A stretch of 44,738 nucleotides of DNA from an uncultured Granulosicoccaceae bacterium (GTDB lineage: Bacteria; Pseudomonadota; Gammaproteobacteria; Granulosicoccales; Granulosicoccaceae), in assembly GCA_938045275.1 (NCBI GenBank), contig CALIMV010000301.1:1-44738 (forward strand), given 5' to 3'. Below are positions 29,394 through 44,125 of the stretch, piece by piece. The position numbers and the translations under genes were made by a program. Each line of letters opens with the position of its first letter. The stretch's first letter is position 1. The notes beneath the pieces are model-generated. The model ran no database searches. It was not told the DNA's origin and was given only the letters and a program-made list of their open reading frames with translations.

Positions 29394-30746
29394 CTATTGC
29401 AGGCCAAGCTTGTGCTCAAGGTAATGAATATCGACCCCGCCTTCGAGAAATCCTTCGTCAAGGAATATATCGTTGTGCAACGGAATGTTAGTCACAATGC
29501 CATCGATAAATACTTCGCTCAACGCGCCACGCATTCGAGACATGGCAGTTTCCCGCGTCATGCCCTTAACGATCAACTTCGCAATCATTGAATCGTAGTT
29601 CGGCGGCACTTTATAACCGTTATATATATGGGTATCCATACGTACGCCTAGTCCACCAGGCGCATGATATTGCGTAATAGTACCTGGCGAAGGCATGAAA
29701 GTATTGGGATCTTCTGCGTTAATACGGCACTCAAACGCATGTCCATTGACGACAATATCTTCCTGTTTGTAAGCAAGCTCGTGCCCTTCAGCCACTTTAA
29801 TTTGCTGTTTGATAATATCCACACCGGTAATCATTTCTGTTACCGGATGTTCAACTTGGACCCGGGTGTTCATTTCAATGAAATAAAACCCACCGTTCTC
29901 ATACAGAAACTCAAACGTGCCAGCACCCCTATAACCAATTCGTTTACAGGCATCGGTACACCGCTTGCCCATATCTTGTCTGGTTTTTTCGTCAATGCCC
30001 GGCGCAGGCGCTTCTTCAACAATCTTTTGATGTCGCCGCTGCAATGAACAGTCCCGCTCTGCCAGATGAATGGCATTTCCATGCGTGTCTGCGATGACCT
30101 GAAATTCTATATGGCGAGGCGACGTCAGGAACTTCTCCATATACACAGTGGAGTTGTTGAAAGCCAATTCAGCCTCACTCTGTGTCATTGAAATCGACTG
30201 CTCAAGCTCGTCAGCACTATGCACAACGCGCATGCCACGGCCACCACCCCCACCCGATGCCTTAATAATGATCGGGTAGCCAATTGATTCCGCCATACGT
30301 CGATTTTCGGCTGCATCATCATTCAAAGGACCATCAGAACCGGGTACACAAGGTACACCTGCAGCACGCATCTCTTTGATAGCGCTCACTTTATCGCCCA
30401 TCGTTCGGATGGTGTCGGCGGTTGGTCCGATAAACACAAAGCCGCTGGATTCAACACGTTCAGCAAAATCTGCATTTTCAGCCAGAAAGCCATAGCCAGG
30501 GTGGATAGCATCAGCACGGGTGATTTCTGCCGCTGAAATAATGGCAGGGATATTTAGATAGCTATCAATTGATGACGGTGGACCAATACAGACAGCTTCA
30601 TCGGCCAGCCGCACGTGTTTCAGATCGCGATCTACAGTGGAGTAAACAGCAACGGTTTGCAGACCGAGATCGCGGCAGCAGCGCATAATGCGCAGAGCTA
30701 TCTCGCCACGATTCGCGATCAGTACTTTTTTCAGTGGTTTTACCAT
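29394..30746 (-). CDS. accC: Biotin carboxylase subunit of acetyl-CoA carboxylase
   Basis: About 450 residues from the ATG at 30746, which gives the expected N-terminus [19 protein letters not shown]; a start at 30773 would add nine residues. It carboxylates the biotin on AccB using ATP and bicarbonate. Landmarks: the [15 protein letters not shown] block, the ATP-grasp glycine loop [12 protein letters not shown], the biotin-carboxylase [14 protein letters not shown] segment and [10 protein letters not shown]. Operon with accB, 37 nt upstream. Confidence 0.98.
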
Positions 30747-30783: not shown

Positions 30784-31257
30784 TTAGTCAATAACGATTA
30801 GTGGCTCACCATACTCAACAGGCTGCCCTTCCTCAATTACAATGGCGCGAACCGTACCGCTGGTCTCTGAGACGATCTGGTTCATGATTTTCATCGCCTC
30901 GATAATACATAAGGTGTCGCCTTTGGACACTTTTTGTCCAATATCAACAAAGGGTTTAGCACCAGGTGAAGGTGATCGGTAGAACGTACCAACCATTGGC
31001 GACTCAACAATGGTGCCCGGCGGCAGCAAGTCATCAACGTCGTTGGATGCTGCGGAGCCAGTTGCATCGGGCGCGGCTGGCATACTGCCAGTTGGTTGAA
31101 CTGGATTCATAATGGGCTGGGGGGCGACTGCAACGGCATTGCCGACCGGAGCACCGCGTGCGATTCGCACCGACTCCTCACCTTCCACAATTTCTATTTC
31201 GGCCACATCCGAGTCTTCCAGCAACTCAATCAGTTTCTTAATTTTTCGAATGTCCAT
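30784..31257 (-). CDS. accB: Biotin carboxyl carrier protein
   Basis: 157 residues. The N-terminal helix-rich region (about 1-35) is followed by an Ala/Pro-rich flexible linker (about 45-80). The biotinyl domain contains [15 protein letters not shown] (the thumb) and [12 protein letters not shown] with the biotinylated lysine of EAMKM-type motifs. It carries CO2 between AccC and the carboxyltransferase. The adjacency of a likely biotin-uptake locus some 7 kb away is notable because AccB is the main biotin acceptor in the cell. Confidence 0.98.
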
Positions 31258-32519: not shown

Positions 32520-33731
32520 TTACATACGGCGAAAAACCAGCGATGCGTTAGTGCCACCAAAGCCGAAACTGTTAGACATGACGGTATCGAGTTTCGCATT
32601 GTCGAGCCGACTGGTCGCTATGTTCATGCCTTTGGCAGCCTCATCCAGTGTATGGATATTGGCTGATGCTGCGATAAAACCCGCCTGTTGCATAAGCAAC
32701 GTGTAGATCGCTTCCTGAACACCTGCCGCACCTAAGGAATGGCCAGTTAATGATTTTGTTGAATTGATGGTTGGACAATTGTCACCAAACACCGCTTTTA
32801 CTGCACCGAGTTCAGCAATATCACCAACCGGCGTGCTGGTTCCGTGCGCATTAATATAGTCGATCGGTGTATCAACGGTGGACTTTGCGAGTTTCATGCA
32901 ACGCTGCGCGCCTTCGCCCGAAGGTGCAACCATGTCATGCCCATCCGAGGTCGCACCATAGCCAACCACTTCAGCATAGATATTTGCTCCTCTGGCAAGG
33001 GCTGTTTCAAGCTCTTCGACCACCACCATGCCGCCGCCACCGGCGATGACAAAACCATCCCGATCAGCATCGTAGGCTCGTGAGGCCTGGCCAGGATTGT
33101 CGTTGTACTTAGATGACAACGCCCCCATCGCATCAAACATGCAACTCAATGTCCAATGTTCCTCTTCACCACCACCTGCGAAAATACGATCTTGTTTACC
33201 CAATTGTATGAGCTCTAAAGCGTTACCAATACAATGCGCACTGGTCGAGCAGGCAGATGAAATGGAATAGTTAGTGCCCTTGATTTTGTACGGCGTTGCC
33301 AGACAGGCAGAAACAGTTGACCCCATTGTTTGCGTAACGCGATACGGGCCTACCCGACGTATGCCCCGTTCGCGCAAAATATCTGCGCTTTCAACTTGAG
33401 AGAATGCTGAACCACCACCAGAACCTGCAATAATACCGGTTCTTTCATTAGACACTTCATCTTCACTTAAGCCTGCATCACTAATGGCATCTCGCATCGC
33501 TATATAAGCATACGCGGCTGCATCGCACATAAAGCGCAATTGTTTACGGTCAATATTTTCTTTTAAATCTATTTCGGGGCGAGCTGCTACGTGCGAGCGC
33601 ATTCCCATTTCCTGATAGATTTCGCGAGCAGTAATACCCGACGTTCCATCACGCAATGCTGCCGTGACAGTTGATTTATCATTGCCCAAGCAGGAAACAA
33701 TGCCGATACCGGTGATGACTGCACGACGCAT
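32520..33731 (-). CDS. fabB: Beta-ketoacyl-ACP synthase I
   Basis: 403 residues. Condensing enzyme that elongates unsaturated fatty acids. The Cys-His-His triad is visible: [10 protein letters not shown] (nucleophile Cys), [10 protein letters not shown] and [10 protein letters not shown]. The C-terminal [15 protein letters not shown] is standard. It lies 12 nt after fabA, the pairing that defines the anaerobic unsaturated fatty-acid branch. Confidence 0.98.
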
Positions 33732-33743
33732 AGGAGGAACTCG

Positions 33744-34259
33744 CTAGAAATCTTTAGTTGAGGTGAATAGACCAACGCGTAAATCGTTTGCCGTATATAT
33801 TTCCTTGCCATCGACAAGCATACGGCCATCGGCTATGCCCATGACCAATCGACGTTCGATAAGACGCTTAATGTGTAATTCGTAGGTGACCAGTTTGGCT
33901 TCTGGTAAAACTTGGCCAAAAAATTTCACTTCACCGCTACCCAAGGCTCGACCCCGACCCGGATTGCCTTTCCAGCCAAGGAAGAAACCAACCAATTGCC
34001 ACATAGCATCGAGGCCAAGACAACCTGGCATTACCGGGTCTCCGACAAAATGACACCCGAAGAACCATAAATCGGGGTTGATATCGAGTTCCGCAGTAAT
34101 GTGGCCTTTACCTGCGCTACCACCGTCAGCAGTAATGCTGGTTATGCGGTCCATCATCAGCATATTCGGTGTTGGCAATCGCGCATTACCTTCACCGAAA
34201 AGCGCACCCTGACCGCAGGCTAAAAGCTCATCCCGGCTAAAAGAATTTTTGTCTATCAC
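33744..34259 (-). CDS. fabA: 3-hydroxydecanoyl-ACP dehydratase/isomerase
   Basis: 171 residues, full length. It dehydrates 3-hydroxydecanoyl-ACP and isomerises the product to the cis-3 form, committing chains to unsaturation. The active-site His lies in [15 protein letters not shown] and the Asp in [10 protein letters not shown], both as in E. coli FabA. It is the first gene of fabA-fabB. The N-terminus starts at [18 protein letters not shown], as in homologues. Confidence 0.98.
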
Positions 34260-34348
34260 TTAATCTAGCTATTCCGTAGAGATCACGAACATTCTACTGC
34301 TTTGATCGAAACACTGCCACGCAGTAGTGGTAAATACGAGAAAAATGG

Positions 34349-35083
34349 CTACTGTGCACCAAACACCCGGCGCAACAGTTCGCTGGTGCGCTTGACAGGA
34401 TTGGTTCGAATGGCTTTCTCTTCTTGCGCCAAATACAAAAAGATACCATCGGCTCCCTTTTCGACCACATGGCCAGACAAATCTGCTTCCACTTTGGGTG
34501 CTAACGGTATGGCGTTATATTGCTTTAACAATTGGTTGAACGATTGCACCGCACCCACTTCAGCCAGCGCGTCGTCTACAAGAGGACGCATTGCGGTTTG
34601 TATTGAAGGTCCGGTTTTACCACGAAAATAGCTAGTGGCTGCATCATCTGGCCCTTTTAAAATACCACTGGCGTCTTGCACGCTCATGTCTTTGATAGCA
34701 CCAACGAACAAGCTTTTGGCTTTGGGCGTTGCCAATTCGGCAGCTCGGTTCAATCGTAATTCAAGATCATCGAAAGACTTTTCCATACCAATTTTGCTAG
34801 CGTAGTTACGCGCTTTAAGTAAAGTTTGGGGCAGAGGAATACGAATAGTCGGATCATTGGAAAAACCGTTTTGTTGACCTAACTGGCCAACCACGGCCGA
34901 CGAGCCCTTGGTTAGTGCTTCTTTCAAACCGGCAGTAATGTCTGCATTGCTCAGTAATCCGCTCTGAGAGTCACCCAATACCGCCTCAGCCGTCTTGGTG
35001 AGATCGTCCAACGTTGGGCCGGTACCTCCACAAGCACTTAGTGAGATAACAAAAGCGTACGGAACGATGTGTTTTAAGCGCAT
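34349..35083 (-). CDS. DUF4197 family lipoprotein
   Basis: 244 residues from the ATG at 35083, which has a strong GGAGG site 6 nt upstream and gives a lipoprotein signal with lipobox (SLSAC, Cys about 18). A longer frame from 35230 is not supported. The mature region is a helical DUF4197 domain: LKEALTKGSSAVVGQLGQ, a DPTIRIPLPQTLLKA block, AKSLFVGAIKDMSVQDASGIL and KGADGIFLYLAQEEKAIR. The family is widespread in proteobacteria with no established function. Divergent from the acyl ligase gene. Confidence 0.9.
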   Translation of the reverse strand: MRLKHIVPYAFVISLSACGGTGPTLDDLTKTAEAVLGDSQSGLLSNADITAGLKEALTKGSSAVVGQLGQQNGFSNDPTIRIPLPQTLLKARNYASKIGMEKSFDDLELRLNRAAELATPKAKSLFVGAIKDMSVQDASGILKGPDDAATSYFRGKTGPSIQTAMRPLVDDALAEVGAVQSFNQLLKQYNAIPLAPKVEADLSGHVVEKGADGIFLYLAQEEKAIRTNPVKRTSELLRRVFGAQ

Positions 35084-35146
35084 TATGCCTCCAGTGTGTT
35101 GCATAGTTTCTATTAGATGAGGGTAAGCTTTTTCGGCAATCAATGC

Positions 35147-35178
35147 ACAGTTAACTACCGTGAATTGGCGTAAACTGT
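35147..35178. promoter_or_regulatory. 9-bp inverted repeat in the divergent region before the acyl ligase
   Basis: ACAGTTAAC (35147-35155) and GTAAACTGT (35170-35178) are inverted with one mismatch and a 14-nt spacer. It lies 66 nt upstream of the ligase TTG and 64 nt upstream of the DUF4197 start. Half-sites containing GTTAAC or GTAAAC separated by about 14-16 nt recall BirA (biotin repressor) operators, but the outer bases differ from the TTGTAAAC-type consensus and the half-site orientation is not an exact match. Candidate operator only. Confidence 0.4.
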
Positions 35179-35243
35179 CAGATAAAAGCCCACTGCGAGT
35201 ATAACTCGCGAATGATATTCGAACACGCAATGGAAAAGGACAA

Positions 35244-36557
35244 TTGGACGACGAGCAAAATGAGTCTTTCCGCTGGCACCCTCAGTCTCAATTGCGAAGC
35301 ATTTCAAACACCGGCAAATCAAACACCGGCAAATCAATCACCGGCAACAATCCGCAACAGACAATCCACAAATCACTGAGTGGTGTCCAATATATTACCG
35401 AAGTCGATTGCGAAAATACCCTGCGTTGTCTGCGTAATATCATAACCAATCGGCAAGAATTCTGTGTTCATCCTGCGCAGTACCAACCTGAGCCAGAGTC
35501 TCAACGCACCGAACAAGCAGCGTTTTTCCAATGCTTAAGCGCGGGTACTAATGGAGTACCGAAACGCATTCGACGCACCCATCAATCCTGGATAAGTAGC
35601 TTTCGCATTAATGCGCAGCTAGCCAATATTGGCAGCACTGACAGCTACGCAATCATTGGCAGGCTATCGCATTCTTTGGCTCTCTACGCCGCTTTAGAGG
35701 CGTCTCACCTTGGGGCCGACCTACACGCACTTACCGATCTGCGACCAGACAACCAACTCAAAGCACTGGCTATATTGCAATCCAGCATTCTTTATGCAAC
35801 ACCAACTCAATTGCGACTCCTATGCAAACAGGCAAAGTCTATCGATAGTAGCCAACTGTTTGTACGTCATATTTTTTGCGGTGGTGGAAAGCTCGACCAG
35901 GCAACAGCGCATGATGTTCAAGAGCTGTTCCAGCAAGCAACGCTACGGGAGTTCTACGGTGCCTCAGAAACCAGTTTTATTTCCTTGACCGATGAACACA
36001 CACCCAGTGGTTCGGTTGGAAAACCTTATCCAGGAGTAGAGATAGCAATTGGAGAAACACCAAATACGCAAGATAGCTCTGGAGAATGCGCAACAGGTGA
36101 AATTTGGGTAAAGAGTCCGTACGTATTTCATGCATATGCAGATAACTGCGCTACAGCGGCTTGTTGGCAGGCTGGCTTTATTAGCGTTGGTGAAATGGGC
36201 TATTTTGATAAAAACGGTTATCTGTTTCTAGCAGGCCGTCAGTCGCGTCGCGTTAATATTGCCGATACTGTTGTTTATCCTGAGGAAGTAGAAAATGCAC
36301 TGCATGCACACGCAGCCGTAAGTCATTGCGCAGTTGTTGCTGTAGAAGATACTCAACGAGGGTGTGTATTGATGGCTGTCGTTGAAGCTGATGACAGTGT
36401 CGAACTGAAAAAAAGTTTGCTCGTTTATCTTCGGCAATGTGTTGGACCACTAAAAGCACCGCGTGATATTGTCTTTGTCAGTGCAATGCCACTGCTTGCT
36501 TCCGGAAAACCAGATTTACGCACAATTAAACGGCTTTTGTCAAAACGATCACAATAA
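35244..36557 (+). CDS. AMP-dependent acyl ligase with short N-terminal part
   Basis: 437 residues, adenylate-forming (ANL) superfamily; activates a carboxylic acid as acyl-AMP and normally transfers it to CoA. Motifs: P-loop SAGTNGVPKRIRRTH (about 99-113, Lys107), REFYGASET (A5), SVGEMGYFDKNGYLFLAGR (A7/A8, with Glu where Asp is usual), VVYPEEVENAL and the C-terminal LASGKPDLRTIK with the catalytic Lys. The P-loop lies about 60 residues nearer the N-terminus than is common, so the N-terminal subdomain is shortened. The only starts in frame are TTG at 35244 or a non-canonical ATT at 35217. Residues 22-35 are built from a 15-bp tandem repeat. Just upstream of a thiolase gene. Confidence 0.85.
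   Translation: MDDEQNESFRWHPQSQLRSISNTGKSNTGKSITGNNPQQTIHKSLSGVQYITEVDCENTLRCLRNIITNRQEFCVHPAQYQPEPESQRTEQAAFFQCLSAGTNGVPKRIRRTHQSWISSFRINAQLANIGSTDSYAIIGRLSHSLALYAALEASHLGADLHALTDLRPDNQLKALAILQSSILYATPTQLRLLCKQAKSIDSSQLFVRHIFCGGGKLDQATAHDVQELFQQATLREFYGASETSFISLTDEHTPSGSVGKPYPGVEIAIGETPNTQDSSGECATGEIWVKSPYVFHAYADNCATAACWQAGFISVGEMGYFDKNGYLFLAGRQSRRVNIADTVVYPEEVENALHAHAAVSHCAVVAVEDTQRGCVLMAVVEADDSVELKKSLLVYLRQCVGPLKAPRDIVFVSAMPLLASGKPDLRTIKRLLSKRSQ
35306..35350 (+). repeat. 15-bp tandem repeat inside the acyl ligase coding region
   Basis: AAACACCGGCAAATC occurs twice exactly and a third time diverged, encoding NTGKS-NTGKS-ITGN. The unit is a multiple of three, so copy changes keep frame. Confidence 0.8.
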
Positions 36558-36568
36558 AATATGCACGC

Positions 36569-37681
36569 ATGTCTATCTGCAGTTACATCATTGGCGCGAA
36601 GAGATCACCCATAGCACCGCGCGGAGGTGCGCTGTCAAGCTTAAACCTTCACCAGTTGGCATCACCAGTCATAGGCGCTCTACTATCATCGGCTAAAATC
36701 GAGCCGCAACAGGTCGATGAACTCATCGTAGGCAACGCACTGGGGGCTGGTGGAAATCCCGCTCGGTTGCTGGCATTAGCAAGTGGCCTTGATGAAAGCG
36801 TTGCGGGCTTGAGTATTGATCGACAATGTTGCAGTGGCCTTGACGCCATATTGATCGCTAACGACATGATTGTTTCTGGGCGTGCGTCCATCGTTATCGC
36901 CGGTGGAGCAGAAAGCTATTCACAGAGACCACATCGATTTTATAAAACGCCTGGCAGCGATACTTTACACGCCTACGATCAACCCGCATTTACGCCCTGG
37001 CCTGAGCGTGATCCTGACATGACGGTCGCAGCAAGCACATTGGCGACAAAGTTAGGCATATCATTCAAACAACAAAATAATTACGCTATTCAAAGCCATA
37101 AAAAAGGTTTAGGTGCAGTTGAACGAATGTCAGCTGAGATAGTACCCATGGCTCAGATCGATAAAGACGACTTCACACGTAAACTCAACACGAAACTTTG
37201 CGAACGCGCCACTCGACTTCACGGCAGCATATCCGTTGCCAATACCGCGGTCGCGGCAGATGGCGCAGCGTTTTGTCTGGTGGTTAGCGAAGCGATTGCC
37301 GCTAAAAGTTTCGGCCATAAATTATGTATTCGATCTGGGGTGACCCTGGGTGCCGACCCAATGCTTCCCGGACAGGCACCTATCGCGGCGATGGATTTTG
37401 TTCTGCAGCAAGAGAACATCGATGCCGCGCAATTGGCAAGAGCAGAAATTATGGAAGCTTATGCCGTTCAAGCCATCGCTTGTACTGAACAAGCAAACAT
37501 AGATTCAGCTATAGCCAACGTTGGTGGCGGTGCACTTGCACGCGGCCATCCGATTGGTGCTTCCGGAGCCGTGCTTATGTCGCGACTTTTTAACGAAATG
37601 GTCAACATTCACGGATGGGGAATTGCTGCCATAGCTGCTGCAGGTGGTTTGGGAACAGCCGTTCTGGTACACAACGACTGA
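36569..37681 (+). CDS. Thiolase-family acyltransferase with altered active site
   Basis: 370 residues. Thiolase fold with the nucleophilic cysteine in DRQCCSGLDA (C87) and the conserved His in RGHPIGASGA (H327). The second catalytic cysteine of the usual C-terminal CIGGGQG is replaced by alanine (A356 in AIAAAGGLG). The NEAFA asparagine is replaced by Met (M295 in IMEAYAVQA). These changes should impair ordinary thiolysis or Claisen condensation, so the true activity is unclear. The ATG at 36569 follows the ligase stop by 11 nt, so the two are an operon. With BioY-type transport genes opposite, a YhfS-like role in biotin-precursor metabolism is the best guess. Confidence 0.88.
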   Translation: MSICSYIIGAKRSPIAPRGGALSSLNLHQLASPVIGALLSSAKIEPQQVDELIVGNALGAGGNPARLLALASGLDESVAGLSIDRQCCSGLDAILIANDMIVSGRASIVIAGGAESYSQRPHRFYKTPGSDTLHAYDQPAFTPWPERDPDMTVAASTLATKLGISFKQQNNYAIQSHKKGLGAVERMSAEIVPMAQIDKDDFTRKLNTKLCERATRLHGSISVANTAVAADGAAFCLVVSEAIAAKSFGHKLCIRSGVTLGADPMLPGQAPIAAMDFVLQQENIDAAQLARAEIMEAYAVQAIACTEQANIDSAIANVGGGALARGHPIGASGAVLMSRLFNEMVNIHGWGIAAIAAAGGLGTAVLVHND

Positions 37682-37738
37682 TTACTTACGACTGATTACT
37701 TACGACTGATTAGTTACGATTGATTAGTTACGATTGAA
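37676..37738. repeat. 14-bp tandem repeat between converging operons
   Basis: GACTGATTACTTAC occurs twice exactly, then twice with one or two changes, then a partial fifth unit, starting within the last codons of the thiolase gene. It fills the gap between the thiolase and the convergent nitroreductase. Likely slippage-generated. Confidence 0.8.
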
Positions 37739-37744
37739 TTGCCA

Positions 37745-38446
37745 TTAAAACCCGTGAAACGAGGCGAAAGAATCCAGAGGTGCACGAGTTGTTCTTACTC
37801 TATTAACTGGATGATCATGATCAGGCAAGCCCAAAGCAACACCACACACAACCATTTCCTGCACAGGCAGTGATAAACATTCGTGAACCACATCTGCATG
37901 GTTCGCAAGCGCACCTATACCACTGGTACCATAACCACGGCTTTGTGCACTGACAAATAGACTCATCAACCCCATGCCTAAATCCATAAAACAACCTTTA
38001 CCCATGTCTCTGTCAATACTGACCACTATTCCAACCGGGGCATCAAAGAACCGGTAGTTGCGCGCAAACTGCTCTCTTCTTGCCTGAGTATCGCGCCGTC
38101 CAATGCCCAAGGCTTTATACAGAGCAAAACCTGCTTCGTGCTGCCGCGCTTTGAGCTCATCCGACAATACTGGAGGGAAATAGGAATATTCGGAAACCGG
38201 TTTTCTATTTTGTTCGATGGCTTCTGACAGTGCATTTGTTAATGTCGATAATGCACTGCCGGTTAATACATGAAAACGACCAGGTTGCAAATTGGCACCA
38301 CTGGGTGCATGTCGAGCGCAGGTTAGTATGGCTTCCAGACTGTTACGATCAATTGCATCAGGTAAAAATGCCCTGACTGAACGACGCTGTTCAATCAGTT
38401 TCTCAATATCATTTAAATTCACTTGAATCTCTAAGTAATGCTTCAA
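37745..38446 (-). CDS. Nitroreductase family flavoprotein
   Basis: 233 residues. FMN-binding nitroreductase fold: IEQRRSVRAFLPDAIDRNSLEAIL, ARHAPSGANLQPGRFHVL and a late GIGALANHADVV block. Its ATG overlaps the bioY stop by 4 nt (ATGA), so it is translationally coupled to the transporter. Members reduce nitro, quinone or enoyl groups, and one branch (BluB) cleaves FMN; the substrate here is unknown. Its fixed place in a biotin-like transport operon suggests a role in processing a ring or sulphoxide form of the vitamin, which is speculation. Confidence 0.85.
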   Translation of the reverse strand: MKHYLEIQVNLNDIEKLIEQRRSVRAFLPDAIDRNSLEAILTCARHAPSGANLQPGRFHVLTGSALSTLTNALSEAIEQNRKPVSEYSYFPPVLSDELKARQHEAGFALYKALGIGRRDTQARREQFARNYRFFDAPVGIVVSIDRDMGKGCFMDLGMGLMSLFVSAQSRGYGTSGIGALANHADVVHECLSLPVQEMVVCGVALGLPDHDHPVNRVRTTRAPLDSFASFHGF

Positions 38447-38988
38447 CTGCGAGATAACACACTGTGTGGTCGTGCCTTGAACAATGCGCCTGTGAGAAAG
38501 CCTGCGATGATTGCCTTAACAATATCACCTGGAATATACACCAACACCAAGGTCGCAGCCTCCAGAACAGGCTTATCCAAATTTTTTGACAAACCTGCTA
38601 TGCCAAACACATAGAGCACTATGATGCCGCCAACAATAGAGGCAATGATGGCAATGGCAACAATGGATATGGCGCGCACTTGTTCCACGATCAGACCAGT
38701 AACAAACGCAGCAACCGGCCAGCCGATTAAAAACCCGGCCGTAGGACTTGCCAACAATCCAATACCAGTTCGACCACCTGACAATGGCACCAGGCCAACC
38801 AAAACCAACGCAAGTACCAACAATACCGCAAGTGCACCACGCTTGGCCCCTAACACGGTACCGCACAACATCACGCCCAAAGTTTGCGCAGTTATTGGTA
38901 CACCAACAGGTAGCATAATGGGTGGTATAAAACCTAAAGCGATAATAAGTGCTGCAAATAAAGCAATAAATACAACATCCCGATCCAT
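38443..38988 (-). CDS. bioY: BioY, substrate-binding component of an ECF biotin transporter
   Basis: 181 residues, about six helices. Matches BioY across the LPVGVPITAQTLGVMLCG block, GAKRGALAVLLVL, LVPLSGGRTGIGLL and SPTAGFLIGWPVAA, and ends with the YIPGDIVKAIIAG segment. Binds biotin with high affinity in the inner membrane and works with an energising EcfA-EcfT module, whose genes are directly upstream. Gap of 41 nt to the upstream EcfT gene; overlapped by the nitroreductase at its 3' end. Confidence 0.95.
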   Translation of the reverse strand: MDRDVVFIALFAALIIALGFIPPIMLPVGVPITAQTLGVMLCGTVLGAKRGALAVLLVLALVLVGLVPLSGGRTGIGLLASPTAGFLIGWPVAAFVTGLIVEQVRAISIVAIAIIASIVGGIIVLYVFGIAGLSKNLDKPVLEAATLVLVYIPGDIVKAIIAGFLTGALFKARPHSVLSRS

Positions 38989-39029
38989 GAACTTTACCTT
39001 TGAGGAAAATTTGTATTAAAAATTAGCGT

Positions 39030-39644
39030 TTAATTGTCGGAAAGTTTGTGTGAACCGCCGCGTGCTTTTAAAGCTTCGGCGACACGTTCTGCATCATCTA
39101 TAGCAACCAGACAAAGTGGAAACGCAACGCGCCAATGGCTTCTCTTAACAGACCGTGCTCGCCAGGCTTCTAGCAACATACCACCCTTGACTATTAATAC
39201 CGGAGTATATCTGACCACCAACGCGACTGCTATTTCTATTGGACGCGTATTAATGCCCAGCTTACGAATAGGTTTGAAAACACGCCGTACCAACTCAAGT
39301 AAATCGGTAAGCCGACTGGTCATTGTCATCAAATTTGACAGTGCAATAATTGAGACTAAACGCAATGTCATTCCCAGCCCCTGCAGAGCCGTTCCGGTCA
39401 AACCATGCCAAATAAGAATAATCAGAATGATTGGCCATAAAAACAATAATCGTTTTACTCCCGCGTAAAAAAAAGTGGGCCCAGCTGATAGATAAAGCAG
39501 GCAACACGTTAAGAATGCAACAAGTTGCAGTTGGACAGCATCCAGCAAAAACAATGTAACCGAGCAAATACAAACAGTCAGAAACTTCCACATTACTGGC
39601 ACTTTGTGCCAATGTGTGACTACTGGAGAATCAAAGTAAAGCAC
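39030..39644 (-). CDS. bioN: EcfT-type transmembrane component (BioN-like)
   Basis: 204 residues. CbiQ/EcfT family: several membrane helices in the N-terminal half and two cytoplasmic coupling helices marked by the Ala-Arg signatures AWRARS and ALKARGG near the C-terminus, which dock the ATPase. It overlaps the upstream ATPase gene by 14 nt. With the adjacent BioM-like ATPase and BioY this makes a three-gene BioMNY set. Confidence 0.9.
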   Translation of the reverse strand: MLYFDSPVVTHWHKVPVMWKFLTVCICSVTLFLLDAVQLQLVAFLTCCLLYLSAGPTFFYAGVKRLLFLWPIILIILIWHGLTGTALQGLGMTLRLVSIIALSNLMTMTSRLTDLLELVRRVFKPIRKLGINTRPIEIAVALVVRYTPVLIVKGGMLLEAWRARSVKRSHWRVAFPLCLVAIDDAERVAEALKARGGSHKLSDN

Positions 39645-40371
39645 TTGAACAACCTAACTCCTTCATACGTTCTGTGAATGCTGGCAGAACGCTCTCTGGC
39701 GTACCGTCATTGACGATCTCGCCTGCCTCTAACCATAGTATCCGCTCGTAATTCAATAACGCATCCGTTTGATGACTAACATGAATAACCACTGCCTCCA
39801 CGTTATCCAGATGTCGGGTTAATTGCATGGTGGTTGGGATATCCAAACCTGCATACGGTTCATCCAATACAATAAGACGCGGCTTCATTAACATTACAGC
39901 CAAAAGACAAACCAGGTGTCGCTGTCCTTGCGATAACGCACTCACCGACTTACCGGCCCATTCTTCAATACCAAACCTACATAAGGCATCATGGGTATGT
40001 TCGCGTGCATTTTCGCGCGACATACCCAGTTGTTGCAGACCAAAACCCAGCTCTTCTTCTACTGTTGGAAAAATGATCTGATGATCGGGATTTTGAAATA
40101 ACATACCTACTGTGCGTATTGCCTGATGTCGATCGTGCGCCACATCAATTCCAGCCACACGAATGGTCCCGGAGCTAGGATTAATCAATCCGCACAACAG
40201 TCGTGCAAGCGTGGATTTTCCGGATCCATTACGACCTACAATACCGATTCGCTGTTGATCTGCTGTAAATGACAAGCCTTGGAGAATGGATTCCCCCGCA
40301 ATGCAATAGCGAACATCATTGAGCTCAATGTTGCAACTAGCTTTTGAAAAAGCCTGATTCACGCAGCCCAT
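39631..40371 (-). CDS. bioM: EcfA-type ATPase of ECF transporter (BioM-like)
   Basis: 246 residues. One ATP-binding domain: GIVGRNGSGKSTLARLL (Walker A), LFQNPDHQIIFPTVEEEL (Q-loop region typical of ECF ATPases), SALSQGQRHLVCLLA (signature variant), LIVLDEPYAGLD (Walker B) and VIHVSHQTD (switch His). It overlaps EcfT by 14 nt and the TauE gene by 13 nt. Energises BioY-mediated uptake. Confidence 0.93.
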   Translation of the reverse strand: MGCVNQAFSKASCNIELNDVRYCIAGESILQGLSFTADQQRIGIVGRNGSGKSTLARLLCGLINPSSGTIRVAGIDVAHDRHQAIRTVGMLFQNPDHQIIFPTVEEELGFGLQQLGMSRENAREHTHDALCRFGIEEWAGKSVSALSQGQRHLVCLLAVMLMKPRLIVLDEPYAGLDIPTTMQLTRHLDNVEAVVIHVSHQTDALLNYERILWLEAGEIVNDGTPESVLPAFTERMKELGCSSALL

Positions 40372-41126
40372 TTACTCCACAAGTTGATCAGACCTAACAG
40401 CGACACCAGAGTCAATCCAGTACCTATAAATTGTTCAAATCGTCTTTTATCACCTTTCATAATTTTTTCATGGGCCTGCAAACCCAGAAAGTGTCCAATA
40501 CCGGCCAACGGGAAAGACAACAAAGTTAGTCGCCATTGCAGGTTGATGTCTGCCGCCGCGAACGTACTTAGTTTCAGAATTGTCAGCACAATCCATAAAA
40601 CGAAAAATGTATCGCGCATTTTGTTCCTGTGTAGATAACGATTGCCAACAGCAACGATCAATGGAGCACCAATTAACGATACTCCGCTAACGTAGCCACC
40701 AAAGCACAGAAAAACGAAATCAGCTACCCGACTTTTACTGGAAAACACATAATTTATGACATATCCAATGCCGTAAATCAGTGTAGTGGCGTACACAATA
40801 CTGCTCAATAACGCGCCAGGAAATTCCAATAGTCCCATCAAACCAATAACAAACGGAATAGATAAGGCGAGAATGATTTTTAAAAGAAAATCCCAGTCGA
40901 CATTGCTGATACGAGTCACGACAGTGAGCAATGAGAAAAAGAGCAATTGGAAGCATATTGCCGGCAGGAAGACCAAGGGGTCGTTTACAAACATAAGCAA
41001 CAACGGCAATGACAAGGCTGTGCCACCGAACCCTAAACCAGACCTTACAAAGCCGCTCCAGATAAAGCACGCCCCGACCAGCAGCATTTGCCACAAAGGC
41101 AGCGTATCCAGAACCGAATTCGTCAT
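40359..41126 (-). CDS. TauE/SafE family sulfite or organosulfur exporter
   Basis: 255 residues, about eight membrane helices, with the TauE/SafE N-terminal GFVRSGLGFGGTALSLPLLL and a second GGYVSGVSLIGAPLIV repeat. Members export sulfite, sulfoacetate or related anions, or have been linked to sulphur-compound handling. Its overlap with the BioM-like ATPase ties it to the transporter operon. Biotin contains sulphur, so exporting a sulphur by-product of biotin breakdown is a possible link, though unproven. Confidence 0.85.
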   Translation of the reverse strand: MTNSVLDTLPLWQMLLVGACFIWSGFVRSGLGFGGTALSLPLLLMFVNDPLVFLPAICFQLLFFSLLTVVTRISNVDWDFLLKIILALSIPFVIGLMGLLEFPGALLSSIVYATTLIYGIGYVINYVFSSKSRVADFVFLCFGGYVSGVSLIGAPLIVAVGNRYLHRNKMRDTFFVLWIVLTILKLSTFAAADINLQWRLTLLSFPLAGIGHFLGLQAHEKIMKGDKRRFEQFIGTGLTLVSLLGLINLWSKWAA

Positions 41127-41150
41127 TTCTGTGAACTACTGATCGGTAAA

Positions 41151-41774
41151 TTACCTAAGTCCAGTCCAGTGAGCTGGTTGTTTGGTTTTCTTATCCAATT
41201 TAGCGACCCGGGCGTGGTGAGGACAAGAAATAAGGTGATCGTTGACCATGCCCGATGCTTGCATAAACGCATAACACGTAGTGGGGCCAACAAACTTGAA
41301 GCCGGCTTTTTTTAACGCTTTGCTCATTAAAACAGACTGATCGGTACTGCCTTGTACGGTCGCCATACTTTTGTGCTTATTCTGCACAATTTTATAATCA
41401 ACAAATGACCATAAGAAATCGACGAATGATTCGCCTCTTTTCTCCATAGCCACAACCACTTGCGCATTATTAACGAAGGCTTCAATTTTTTGCCTGTGAC
41501 GGATAATGCCGGCGTCGAGCACCAATTTGTCTATTTTGGCGGCTTTGAATCTGGCAATTTTGGTGACATCAAAATTGGCAAACAAACGACGATAGTTCTC
41601 GCGCTTATTTAAAATGGTAATCCAGCTCAGACCAGCCTGAGCACCTTCCAGACTCAGCATTTCAAACAAACCCTGGGTGTCATAGCAAGGTACACCCCAC
41701 TCCTGATCGTGATAAGCAATGTATAGCTCGCTGCCCAAACACCAACCACAACGTTTTTCTTTTGATTTAGCCAT
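41151..41774 (-). CDS. tag: 3-methyladenine DNA glycosylase I
   Basis: 207 residues from the ATG at 41774 (weak AGG site); the longer frame from 41891 adds an unrelated N-terminus. Excises 3-methyladenine in base-excision repair. Signatures: RCGWC near the start, LYIAYHDQEWGVP, LEGAQAGLSWITIL, AGIIRHRQKIEAFV and VGPTTCYAFMQA. The zinc-snap ligands Cys and His at the N-terminus and His/Cys in VNDHLISC are present. It lies 24 nt upstream of the TauE gene and may be in the same transcript. Confidence 0.95.
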   Translation of the reverse strand: MAKSKEKRCGWCLGSELYIAYHDQEWGVPCYDTQGLFEMLSLEGAQAGLSWITILNKRENYRRLFANFDVTKIARFKAAKIDKLVLDAGIIRHRQKIEAFVNNAQVVVAMEKRGESFVDFLWSFVDYKIVQNKHKSMATVQGSTDQSVLMSKALKKAGFKFVGPTTCYAFMQASGMVNDHLISCPHHARVAKLDKKTKQPAHWTGLR

Positions 41775-42019
41775 ACCTAATTGTGCACAGACAACAAGCA
41801 CAACACAATCGTCAAGTGTCAAATCAAAGAAGTTTGGCATGAAATCGCCTAAACGCCAGGTTGTATAACAGTCGCCAACTACTGGATTCAACTGATTTTT
41901 ATAGGCTAATGTGGTGTGGCAAACAAACGATGCAAAACAGGTTTGGCCAAAATTGACTCAGCAAGGCACCATTCGCAGCGAATGGCTCGGCGCTCCCATA
42001 ATCATATTGGGAATAACGG

Positions 42020-44125
42020 TTAGGTGCCAAATCTCCTGGCAGGTGGCATTGGAACGACATTGTCGCCCTGGTCTGAAACTTCGTACGTGCCTTGCGGCCA
42101 TTTTCGTAGCCACGCAAGGAAGATCGCCACTGGCATAGGCTTACTAATGAAATAGCCCTGCGCTATATCACAGCCCTGGATTTCCAGAAAAGTCAATTGA
42201 TCTTCATCCTCTACACCTTCCGCTACGACCTTCATATTGAAGTGCTTGCCTAAACCCAAGACCGCTTCAACGATTGCTACATCGTCACTGTCGCTGGATA
42301 TATCGGTAATGAAGGCTCGATCAATTTTAAGTGTATGTACTGGAAAACGTTTTAAATAAGCCAAAGACGAATAGCCGGTGCCAAAGTCATCGATTGCCAG
42401 ACCCAGACCAAATCGACTGAGCTCATGCAAGGAGTTGATTACCTCTTCAGGGTCGTGCATTACCGCACTTTCAGTAATTTCCAACTCCAGAAATCTCGGT
42501 GGTAGTTTAGTGTCTTTTAACGCTTTGCTAACCATGGGTAACAAGTTGCCGTCAGTAAACTGTACGGTAGAAATATTCACTGCAATATGCAAATTACCAA
42601 AACCGAGCTGATGTAATTTTCTGATCTCTTTACAAGCAGTTCTTAGAATCCATTCGCCCAACTCAATTATCATACCGGCCTCTTCTGCAACTGGTACAAA
42701 TTCTTCTGGCGAAACGAATCCTCTGGTCGGGTGTTTCCAACGAACCAGAGCCTCCGCTCCTGTGACCTTCCGGCTCGCTATGTCGATTTTGGGCTGATAA
42801 TAAACCTCAAATTGATTTTCTTGCAACGCAAGCTTGAGGTCTTGTTCCATTCGAATGCGAGCGGTCAATCGGCTGCGCATTTTTTCGTTAAAAAGTTGGT
42901 ATTGATTCTTGCCGTTGCTCTTCGCTTCCTGCAAAGCTACTGCGGCGTTGTTGACAATTTCCTCTCCCATTAACTCTTCGTCATGGCTGTCATTCACATC
43001 TTTCGGGAAACATGAAATGCCAACAGATACAGCCGCCTTTAATGTGAATCCACGATACTCGTACGGTGCTATAGCCATACTCATGATACGGCGGGCAATC
43101 TCTTCTGCCGATTGGCGATCATCCGTGTTTTTTTGTATTACAACAAACTCATCACCATCGAGGCGAGCAACCAAATCGATGTCTTGCATCATGGACTGCA
43201 GGCGATTTCCGATCTCTGCAACCATTTTATCGCCAACCAGATGGCCGTACTGATCATTAAAAAACTTGAAGTTATCAAGATCGACCAAATAGACAATAAA
43301 CGGCTCACTGTTTTCCAGCGCGTTTAGAACGGTGCGCTTCAATTTGTCTTCAAACATCAAGCGATTGGGCAGGTGGGTTAGCGGGTCGTGGTGCGCAGCG
43401 AACTCAAGATATTGTTGCTTTACCTTGACTTGTCGAGAGGAGCGCTGTTGTGCCTCGATTAAACTATTGAACTCATCTGCCAGTGCATTAAGATCTTCTG
43501 TTTCTGGATAGTCAATTTTTTCAGGCACGTTGCCTTTACTATTCTCACGACTGGCTCGTAAGCTTGTCGCCAGTTCTGCCATGGGATAGATATATGCTCT
43601 GTTGGTACCCCATAAGGTGACGATCGCAGCAATAAGACTGATTAACAATGATGCGAATATCACTAACACAGTAAATATCATTGATTTTGTGAGAAGTTCA
43701 GACGTACTGATTCTTGCAGCAGCAAGTACTCGAGTTTCGTTATGTTCAAGAAACCAAAGGACATCGATTAAACCACTGACGCTACTGCTGGTTTGTTTTC
43801 CGGTATGTGCCAGGTTTTCAAATTCTGGTAATGCGCCTTCTGCGATGACCGGATTCCCAGCCGAATCGGTTATTAACAATCCGACTAAAGCCGTGTTGAT
43901 CAAACCTTCAGTGTTGCGCAGCGATTCAGGCGGACTGAGGAAAATGATGTTTTGCAGTGAGTTGCGTTCCTGAGCGATCAATGCATCGACAGTTTGATGA
44001 TGCCGAACCCACAACAACGGCAGCAGAATAAGCAGCTGCGCAGTAAATACAGAGCACAGCACCACCACAGCCAGCTTCTGGGCTGGTCGTGAGCTTGATA
44101 GCTTGTCAAGGGCGTTTCGAATCAT
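42020..44125 (-). CDS. Membrane-bound GGDEF-EAL diguanylate cyclase/phosphodiesterase
   Basis: 701 residues. A membrane helix (about 17-39), a periplasmic sensor region (about 40-135), a second helix (about 138-162) and a HAMP-like stretch precede a GGDEF domain and an EAL domain. The cyclase signature reads D323-G-D-E-F, with Asp in the first position. The EAL domain is intact by motif: GAEALVRWKHP (E458), LEITESAV, DDFGTGYSSL, LKIDRAFI and EGVEDEDQ. It should hydrolyse c-di-GMP; cyclase activity is uncertain. It controls biofilm or motility in most bacteria. Upstream region carries a 7-bp dyad. Confidence 0.94.
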   Translation of the reverse strand: MIRNALDKLSSSRPAQKLAVVVLCSVFTAQLLILLPLLWVRHHQTVDALIAQERNSLQNIIFLSPPESLRNTEGLINTALVGLLITDSAGNPVIAEGALPEFENLAHTGKQTSSSVSGLIDVLWFLEHNETRVLAAARISTSELLTKSMIFTVLVIFASLLISLIAAIVTLWGTNRAYIYPMAELATSLRASRENSKGNVPEKIDYPETEDLNALADEFNSLIEAQQRSSRQVKVKQQYLEFAAHHDPLTHLPNRLMFEDKLKRTVLNALENSEPFIVYLVDLDNFKFFNDQYGHLVGDKMVAEIGNRLQSMMQDIDLVARLDGDEFVVIQKNTDDRQSAEEIARRIMSMAIAPYEYRGFTLKAAVSVGISCFPKDVNDSHDEELMGEEIVNNAAVALQEAKSNGKNQYQLFNEKMRSRLTARIRMEQDLKLALQENQFEVYYQPKIDIASRKVTGAEALVRWKHPTRGFVSPEEFVPVAEEAGMIIELGEWILRTACKEIRKLHQLGFGNLHIAVNISTVQFTDGNLLPMVSKALKDTKLPPRFLELEITESAVMHDPEEVINSLHELSRFGLGLAIDDFGTGYSSLAYLKRFPVHTLKIDRAFITDISSDSDDVAIVEAVLGLGKHFNMKVVAEGVEDEDQLTFLEIQGCDIAQGYFISKPMPVAIFLAWLRKWPQGTYEVSDQGDNVVPMPPARRFGT

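Follow-up and report, generated by a model that had tools for sequence, protein, structure and literature searches.

A cassette of ECF-type BioY transporter, YhfT-like ligase and YhfS-like thiolase-fold enzyme in Granulosicoccaceae and other bacteria

BioMNY, of the Rhodobacter capsulatus type, is an energy-coupling factor (ECF) transporter for biotin. In Staphylococcus aureus, according to the portions of text available, BirA together with biotin represses both bioY and yhfS-yhfT (PMC6391492, PMC7235819), and the accessible part of a review gives the same BirA/biotin repression for Bacillus subtilis (PMC11089781). A study of Dinoroseobacter shibae, likewise available in part, states that a plasmid-borne ECF BioY operon is needed for this organism to kill a dinoflagellate, which its authors ascribe to biotin depletion (PMC8831719). 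Here, we describe a locus in a stretch of 44,738 nucleotides (hereafter, the window) from contig CALIMV010000301.1 (C301) of the metagenome-assembled genome (MAG) of an uncultured Granulosicoccaceae bacterium (GCA_938045275.1; 5.75 Mb, 82% complete). Genome comparisons indicate that a YhfT-like ligase, a YhfS-like thiolase-fold enzyme and an ECF-type biotin transporter, often joined by a nitroreductase (NTR), are a genuine cassette, far beyond what chance would assemble.

Two genes on the forward strand, the ANL-family ligase (35244..36557; Pfam AMP-binding and AMP-binding_C; 437 amino acids, TTG start) and the thiolase-fold enzyme (36569..37681; Pfam Thiolase_N/C; 370 amino acids), face four on the reverse strand: an FMN-type NTR (37745..38446; Pfam Nitroreductase; 233 amino acids); BioY, the S component, assigned to the ECF-dependent clade by its position in a tree (38443..38988; PF02632, 103.8 bits against a cut-off of 25); EcfT/BioN, the transmembrane T component (39030..39644; PF02361, CbiQ/EcfT); and the EcfA/BioM ATPase (39631..40371; Pfam ABC_tran, with ECF_ATPase_1 as the best NCBIfam match, below cut-off). 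A TauE/SafE family gene lies behind. An earlier note on this DNA, which proposed the import and processing of biotin or biotin-like compounds, had all seven genes in their correct places and classes, as open reading frame (ORF) positions and Pfam matches confirm; it was also right that NTR and TauE overlap transporter genes (NTR with BioY by 4 nucleotides, EcfA with TauE by 13), and EcfT and EcfA share a further 14 nucleotides. BioY, the sole match of its kind in the source genome, is predicted from the Pfam assignments to make a complete ECF biotin transporter with the adjoining EcfT and ATPase, again as had been proposed. The closest solved structures to the NTR, found by structure search, are the nitroreductases 3gr3 and 7dp0-2, and an Rfam scan of the window matched no family.

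Recurrence of the cassette and its kind of BioY

A scan of named genomes with an alignment of the thiolase returned 45 loci: 8 from Granulosicoccaceae (the same contigs as those among the family relatives examined), and the rest mostly from Rhodobacteraceae and other Alphaproteobacteria, with some from Burkholderiales. The ligase stands beside the thiolase in 40 of these; the remaining five comprise L108, which begins 235 bases before the thiolase, and four ordinary thiolases with the second catalytic Cys. BioY is present at 34 of the 40 ligase–thiolase loci (although weak or partial in L102 and L120), EcfT at 33, an ATPase (at least 38% identity) at 32 and NTR at 27, with all six genes together at 24; TauE is found at three, all in Granulosicoccaceae, and FabA at four. 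At the 32 loci outside Granulosicoccaceae, the counts are 29 for BioY, 28 for EcfT, 19 for NTR and zero for both TauE and FabA. The earlier note's view that the YhfT/YhfS-like pair and the NTR belong with the transporter is thus borne out. It had also allowed for the neighbours varying at random among relatives: no such variation was seen for ligase, thiolase or NTR, but it was seen for TauE.

The thiolase occurs on 23 plasmid records, of which 14 were opened. The 13 annotated ones among these all contain a gene in the ligase place (an AMP-binding protein in 12, a hypothetical protein in one), the thiolase, the NTR (annotated as an oxidoreductase in one) and BioY, and 11 of them also EcfT and the ATPase. 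These plasmid cassettes, from Alphaproteobacteria, have unrelated flanks and at least four gene orders: ligase–thiolase facing NTR–BioY–EcfT–EcfA, as in the window; EcfA–EcfT–BioY–ligase–thiolase facing NTR, in Paracoccus; six genes on a single strand, in Salipiger; and BioY–ligase–thiolase facing NTR, without T component and ATPase. Additionally, a second, more distant thiolase type is found as EcfA–EcfT–BioY–ligase–thiolase without NTR in two Azospirillum, one Shinella, one Sinorhizobium and, on a megaplasmid, the actinomycete Streptantibioticus cattleyicolor. By these comparisons, the cassette is widespread, often plasmid-borne and mobile. Were the genes merely chance or hitch-hiking neighbours without a shared role, they should resemble TauE, accB, DUF4197 and fabA–fabB, which do behave in this way and are absent elsewhere; the enzymes, however, recur with the transporter in varied orders, between unrelated plasmid flanks and in distant hosts. 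Chance association retains scarcely any probability and, for ligase, thiolase and transporter, is on this genomic evidence refuted.

The association is specific to one kind of BioY. Among 150 Rhodobacteraceae genomes, 137 have BioY, and the first 100 BioY sites listed were viewed with 4.5 kb on each side: 65 are without an adjoining EcfT and 35 have one, the latter reducing to 34 as two overlap. Ligase and thiolase accompany 16 of the 34 ECF-type sites and none of the 65 solitary ones (Fisher p 2e-9, with sites treated as independent though the genomes are related); one more ECF-type site has the ligase only, and another the NTR only. Moreover, all 28 thiolase-bearing Rhodobacteraceae have BioY, at most ~3 kb from the thiolase in 23, with two lacking a listed position.

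In a BioY tree (quick method, midpoint root; 81 ECF-type and 81 solitary rows), the two kinds are split with a support of 100, and the window BioY lies on the ECF side. All cassette rows lie there too, mixed with enzyme-free ECF-type rows (at least five forced changes), such that the enzymes appear to come and go with the same transporter kind; the idea of a BioY specialised for the cassette was rejected on the same grounds. The cassette BioYs of Granulosicoccus are placed among alphaproteobacterial ones, pointing to a probable acquisition of the cassette by transfer. Two loci with near-identical BioYs, L103 (titled Gammaproteobacteria) and L096 (Rhodobacteraceae), may represent one organism. 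In G216 (L148/L227) and G112 (L151), a second BioY lies ~2 kb from the ECF-type BioY operon on the opposite strand, which is the layout described for Dinoroseobacter shibae.

Within Granulosicoccus, 21 of the 27 members searched have BioY, seven being ECF-type and 14 solitary by neighbourhood. The cassette-type thiolase is present in six of the seven ECF-type genomes, in none of the 14 solitary ones and in four of the six that are BioY-less. In G013, BioY–EcfT–EcfA–TauE is kept and ligase, thiolase and NTR are all gone together; in G026, the six genes are at another site, without TauE or fabA. Together with the joint retention of the three enzymes in the BioY-less genomes, this joint loss and the G026 site suggest that they behave as one group. 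G031 has a candidate thiolase match (contig C20).

Across Granulosicoccaceae, a slot between glycosylase/GGDEF genes and fabA–fabB (32520-44125 in the window; L029-L054, L072 and L073 in relatives) is variously occupied by a solitary BioY (accompanied by TauE in some cases), by the complete cassette, or by ligase and thiolase alone. The TauE/SafE family permease (40359..41126, reverse strand; PF01925), which the earlier note had counted as a part, also adjoins solitary BioY in several relatives, and therefore seems to belong to the old locus, as a genus-level neighbour outside the cassette. The accB gene for the biotin carboxyl carrier protein (30787..31257, reverse strand; located by tblastn with a relative's protein, 59% identity) is separated from the ligase by 4.0 kb and from BioY by 7.2 kb, much as the note had placed it, with accC at 29400..30734 on the same strand; accB is a housekeeping neighbour. 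Both were tried as cassette parts and rejected: TauE for its absence outside Granulosicoccaceae, and accB as local to this locus.

The ligase and the thiolase-fold enzyme

The best NCBIfam match of the ligase is PRK07638, which we take to be the B. subtilis YhfT model, with 217 of 518 bits, far under the equivalog cut-off; PRK06690, presumably YhfS, is the second-best match of the thiolase with 247 of 498 bits, TIGR01930 being slightly higher at 254.5. As both enzymes fall under half of the curated cut-offs, we word them 'YhfT-like' and 'YhfS-like'. The ligase is short, with ~50–100 N-terminal residues fewer than full-length ligases, and its alignment to PRK07638 starts at model position 118 and ligase residue 67. 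An FxWH-type N-terminus, common to the ligase and its relatives, is consistent with the TTG start. Across 31 aligned ligases, the catalytic Lys422 and an unusual Ser115–Trp116 pair are invariant, and the AlphaFold2 model has a pLDDT of 89 and a pTM of 0.87.

Some YhfT-like ligases are enlarged by low-complexity inserts, namely, those at L047:4951-7068 (G028), where an NxDTPNL-type repeat occupies part of the N-terminal region, and at L053:6101-7663 (G011). In L069 and L070, tandem short repeats (reading LEVLEVLEV) stand before or at the ligase start, which is uncertain in these cases.

The window thiolase has a thiolase fold, as judged by its structure model and a fold search. We take the reference sites of thiolases to be of the Cys89, His348 and Asn316 type, with Cys378 as the second catalytic Cys. 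In the window protein, the nucleophile (Cys87) and the His of the GHP motif (His327) are kept, with Ala356 at the position of the second Cys and Met295 at that of the NEAF Asn. This pattern recurs among the 93 thiolase ORFs contained in the loci retrieved, which include 74 YhfS-like rows (63 distinct, near-copies being included). The second Cys is absent in 74 of the 93 (Ala in 63, Gly in 9, Pro in 2) and kept in 18, and one sequence is cut off there; it is found in none of the 74 YhfS-like rows as against all 18 other thiolases. By contrast, the nucleophilic Cys is present in 73 YhfS-like rows, the remaining one being a fragment, and the His in all 74, and the NEAF Asn position reads Met in 61, Asn in 7, His in 4 and Thr in 2. 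Five further YhfS-like rows have Gly in place of the second Cys.

The Cys-less rows all come from loci with a YhfT-like ligase, save two: L108, which lies at a contig start, and L019, which is a truncated extract of the G010 locus. A ligase match occurs in the loci of two of the 18 Cys-keeping thiolases: in L100, the ligase belongs to the cassette elsewhere in the stretch, and in L052, the ligase match is one of 27%. Three Bacillaceae plasmid thiolases are ordinary thiolases in which the second Cys is present.

The second catalytic Cys of thiolases handles the acetyl-CoA proton. With this residue gone, ordinary thiolysis or acetyl-CoA condensation by YhfS-like enzymes is therefore unlikely, and acyl transfer or a decarboxylating condensation would be possible. 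The loss bears on whether ligase and thiolase could instead act in the side-chain beta-oxidation of imported biotin, for which the enzyme classes match in outline: the Cys needed for thiolysis is missing from all YhfS-like rows, and the annotations of the 13 cassette-bearing plasmid regions show neither an acyl-CoA dehydrogenase nor an enoyl-CoA hydratase next to the thiolase. Moreover, the S. aureus operon is turned off, not on, by biotin in the part of the source available (PMC6391492). We consider breakdown of biotin to be improbable.

Biotin supply and a proposed function

In none of the 36 family genomes, the window's included, does bioB exceed the family cut-off (the best E-value in the window's own genome being 5.9e-6), as opposed to 18 of 21 other members of the class; the 30 further genomes that have the cassette-type thiolase divide into three with bioB and 27 without it. 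These counts tell against an idea contained in the earlier note, that pimelate-like compounds might be imported as precursors. For the biotin-sulphoxide-like compounds that the note also named, the analysis brought evidence on neither side. The ligase–thiolase pair could in principle supply de novo biotin synthesis with a pimelate-type precursor, by making or activating it: acyl ligase and condensing enzyme would be fitting classes, and Bacilli with yhfS-yhfT can also make biotin, according to partial texts (PMC6391492, PMC11089781). Given hosts that mostly lack bioB, we hold such a route to be very improbable in general, and nearly refuted for the source genome, incomplete as the MAG is; a pimelate-to-biotin role in this host seems unlikely.

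The BirA repressor domain (TIGR00122) is over its cut-off of 70 in none of 57 genomes, and its highest score in the window's family is 30.7 bits, with 11 other members of the class reaching 48.6-67.3. Biotin protein ligase (TIGR00121) exceeds its cut-off in the window genome and in nine of the ten thiolase-bearing genus members; the tenth, G010, has a fragment of it at a contig end. As the family has the biotin protein ligase and no repressor domain over cut-off, control must differ from that in Bacilli. Biotin ligases act via an adenylate, and YhfT belongs to an adenylate-forming family, which might suggest that YhfT and YhfS attach biotin to proteins in place of biotin protein ligase; the presence of that ligase in nearly all of these genomes leaves this proposal with minimal credibility.

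The function that we propose, with confidence evenly balanced between belief and doubt, is biotin uptake coupled to the CoA-thioester processing of a biotin-like acid. EcfA–EcfT–BioY would import biotin, and perhaps close relatives; the YhfT-like ligase would adenylate a biotin-like acid at its carboxyl group and hand it to CoA or another thiol; and the YhfS-like enzyme would load the acyl group onto Cys87 and, being presumably unable to perform ordinary thiolysis or acetyl-CoA condensation without the second Cys, would then either transfer it or condense it with a malonyl-type donor, releasing CO2. The NTR may contribute an FMN-dependent reduction to this route. Bacteria that are mostly unable to make biotin would gain a wider or safer supply of it. 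A particular form of such processing, to which we attach a low probability, is biotin repair: a vitamer with a shortened side-chain (e.g. bisnorbiotin) would be imported, activated by YhfT, extended by two carbons through a malonyl-using, decarboxylating YhfS and reduced by the NTR. Loss of the second Cys with retention of Cys and His is compatible with a decarboxylating condensation; if true, repair would be a way to rebuild usable biotin without bioB.

Several observations weigh against uptake coupled to processing. Of the 34 ECF-type BioY sites in Rhodobacteraceae, 18 are without the enzyme pair and fall among cassette BioYs in the tree; import therefore does not need the enzymes. Conversely, four Granulosicoccus genomes that are 99-100% complete (G012, G019, G023 and G024; 6.7-7.8 Mb; L068-L071) keep ligase–thiolase–NTR without BioY or bioB, although biotin protein ligase is present; in these, the three genes adjoin what we take from its sequence to be an ammonium-transporter-like gene. 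G027 and G035 have the ligase–thiolase pair without BioY, directly beside fabA, and three Rhizobium plasmids (L139, L141 and L249) carry thioesterase–ligase–thiolase with no BioY in the stretch; these plasmid thiolases share the loss of the second Cys, the Rhizobium etli copy being annotated VraB. The G027/G035 and Rhizobium pairs imply that the enzymes can exist apart from the importer. In three of the 28 thiolase-bearing Rhodobacteraceae, the only BioY is on another contig. Distances between cassette proteins do correlate (Mantel r 0.77-0.89, with 0 of 999 permutations as high), but this would be partly expected from host kinship. The cassette is predicted to occur mostly in auxotrophs, yet is no mark of auxotrophy, an idea that was tried and rejected: in Rhodobacteraceae, with bioB in 21 of 150 genomes, the gene is as rare without the thiolase (18/122) as with it (3/28; p 0.77). 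Finally, structure models and fold searches gave family-level matches only, with no substrate clue.

Some of the same facts would suit a bypass for lipids under biotin shortage, in which acetyl-CoA carboxylase is slowed and YhfT and YhfS, acting on fatty acids and not on biotin, help to channel acyl chains of exogenous or recycled origin into lipid synthesis. Fatty acids spare biotin; the pair can occur without BioY; the Granulosicoccaceae locus adjoins fabA–fabB, with the G035 and G027 pairs immediately next to fabA; and biotin control in Bacilli is compatible with either explanation. Outside Granulosicoccaceae, however, FabA is found at none of the 32 ligase–thiolase loci, and a lipid role would not predict a pair that accompanies ECF-type BioY but not solitary BioY. 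We regard the lipid bypass as rather unlikely, and as less probable than the processing of a biotin-like acid.

In Bacilli, yhfS-yhfT are already listed as biotin-regulon genes, and the cassette makes the question of their role directly testable. What is new is a proteobacterial and actinobacterial cassette tying such a pair to one class of biotin transporter, mostly in hosts without bioB. The possible chemistry is narrowed, in that neither de novo synthesis, in most hosts, nor ordinary thiolysis would be expected. If the enzymes do process biotin vitamers, this would alter the set of dissolved compounds that serve marine bacteria as biotin.

Comparison with known systems

A literature search found no paper on a BioY–ligase–thiolase–NTR cassette, most subscription papers lying outside its reach. 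With the biosynthetic thiolases of Zoogloea ramigera and Ralstonia (PhaA), the YhfS-like enzymes have in common the fold, the nucleophilic Cys and the GHP His, but differ from them at the second Cys, where every YhfS-like row reads Ala, Gly or Pro, and at the NEAF Asn, which is mostly Met. In BioMNY, as here, BioY adjoins its T and A components; in the parts of the papers available, the treatment of BioMNY from P. denitrificans and D. shibae includes no enzyme module (PMC4554459, PMC8831719). The operon on the 191-kb plasmid of Dinoroseobacter shibae resembles the cassettes in being plasmid-borne and in combining an ECF BioY with a biotin-auxotrophic host; transposon mutants in it lost dinoflagellate killing. 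The accessible text names BioY, an ATPase, EcfT and an oxygenase-like gene in this operon, and not the ligase–thiolase pair (PMC8831719).

The closest relationship is with yhfT-yhfS-yhfU of B. subtilis and with yhfS-yhfT and bioY of S. aureus, which have the same nearest NCBIfam models and a BioY alongside. The earlier note's likening of the locus to B. subtilis yhfT-yhfS-BioY is upheld by these models (PRK07638 and PRK06690), and the S. aureus counterpart is under repression by BirA with biotin, as far as the partial sources go (PMC6391492, PMC7235819). Relative to the Bacilli, the cassette adds a dedicated EcfA–EcfT and, usually, an NTR; its ligase is shortened, its enzymes score far under the equivalog cut-offs, and its host family has no BirA repressor domain over cut-off. 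Overall, sequence comparison identifies the cassette as a variant of the BioY–YhfT–YhfS association of Bacilli, with T and A components of its own and often with a nitroreductase.

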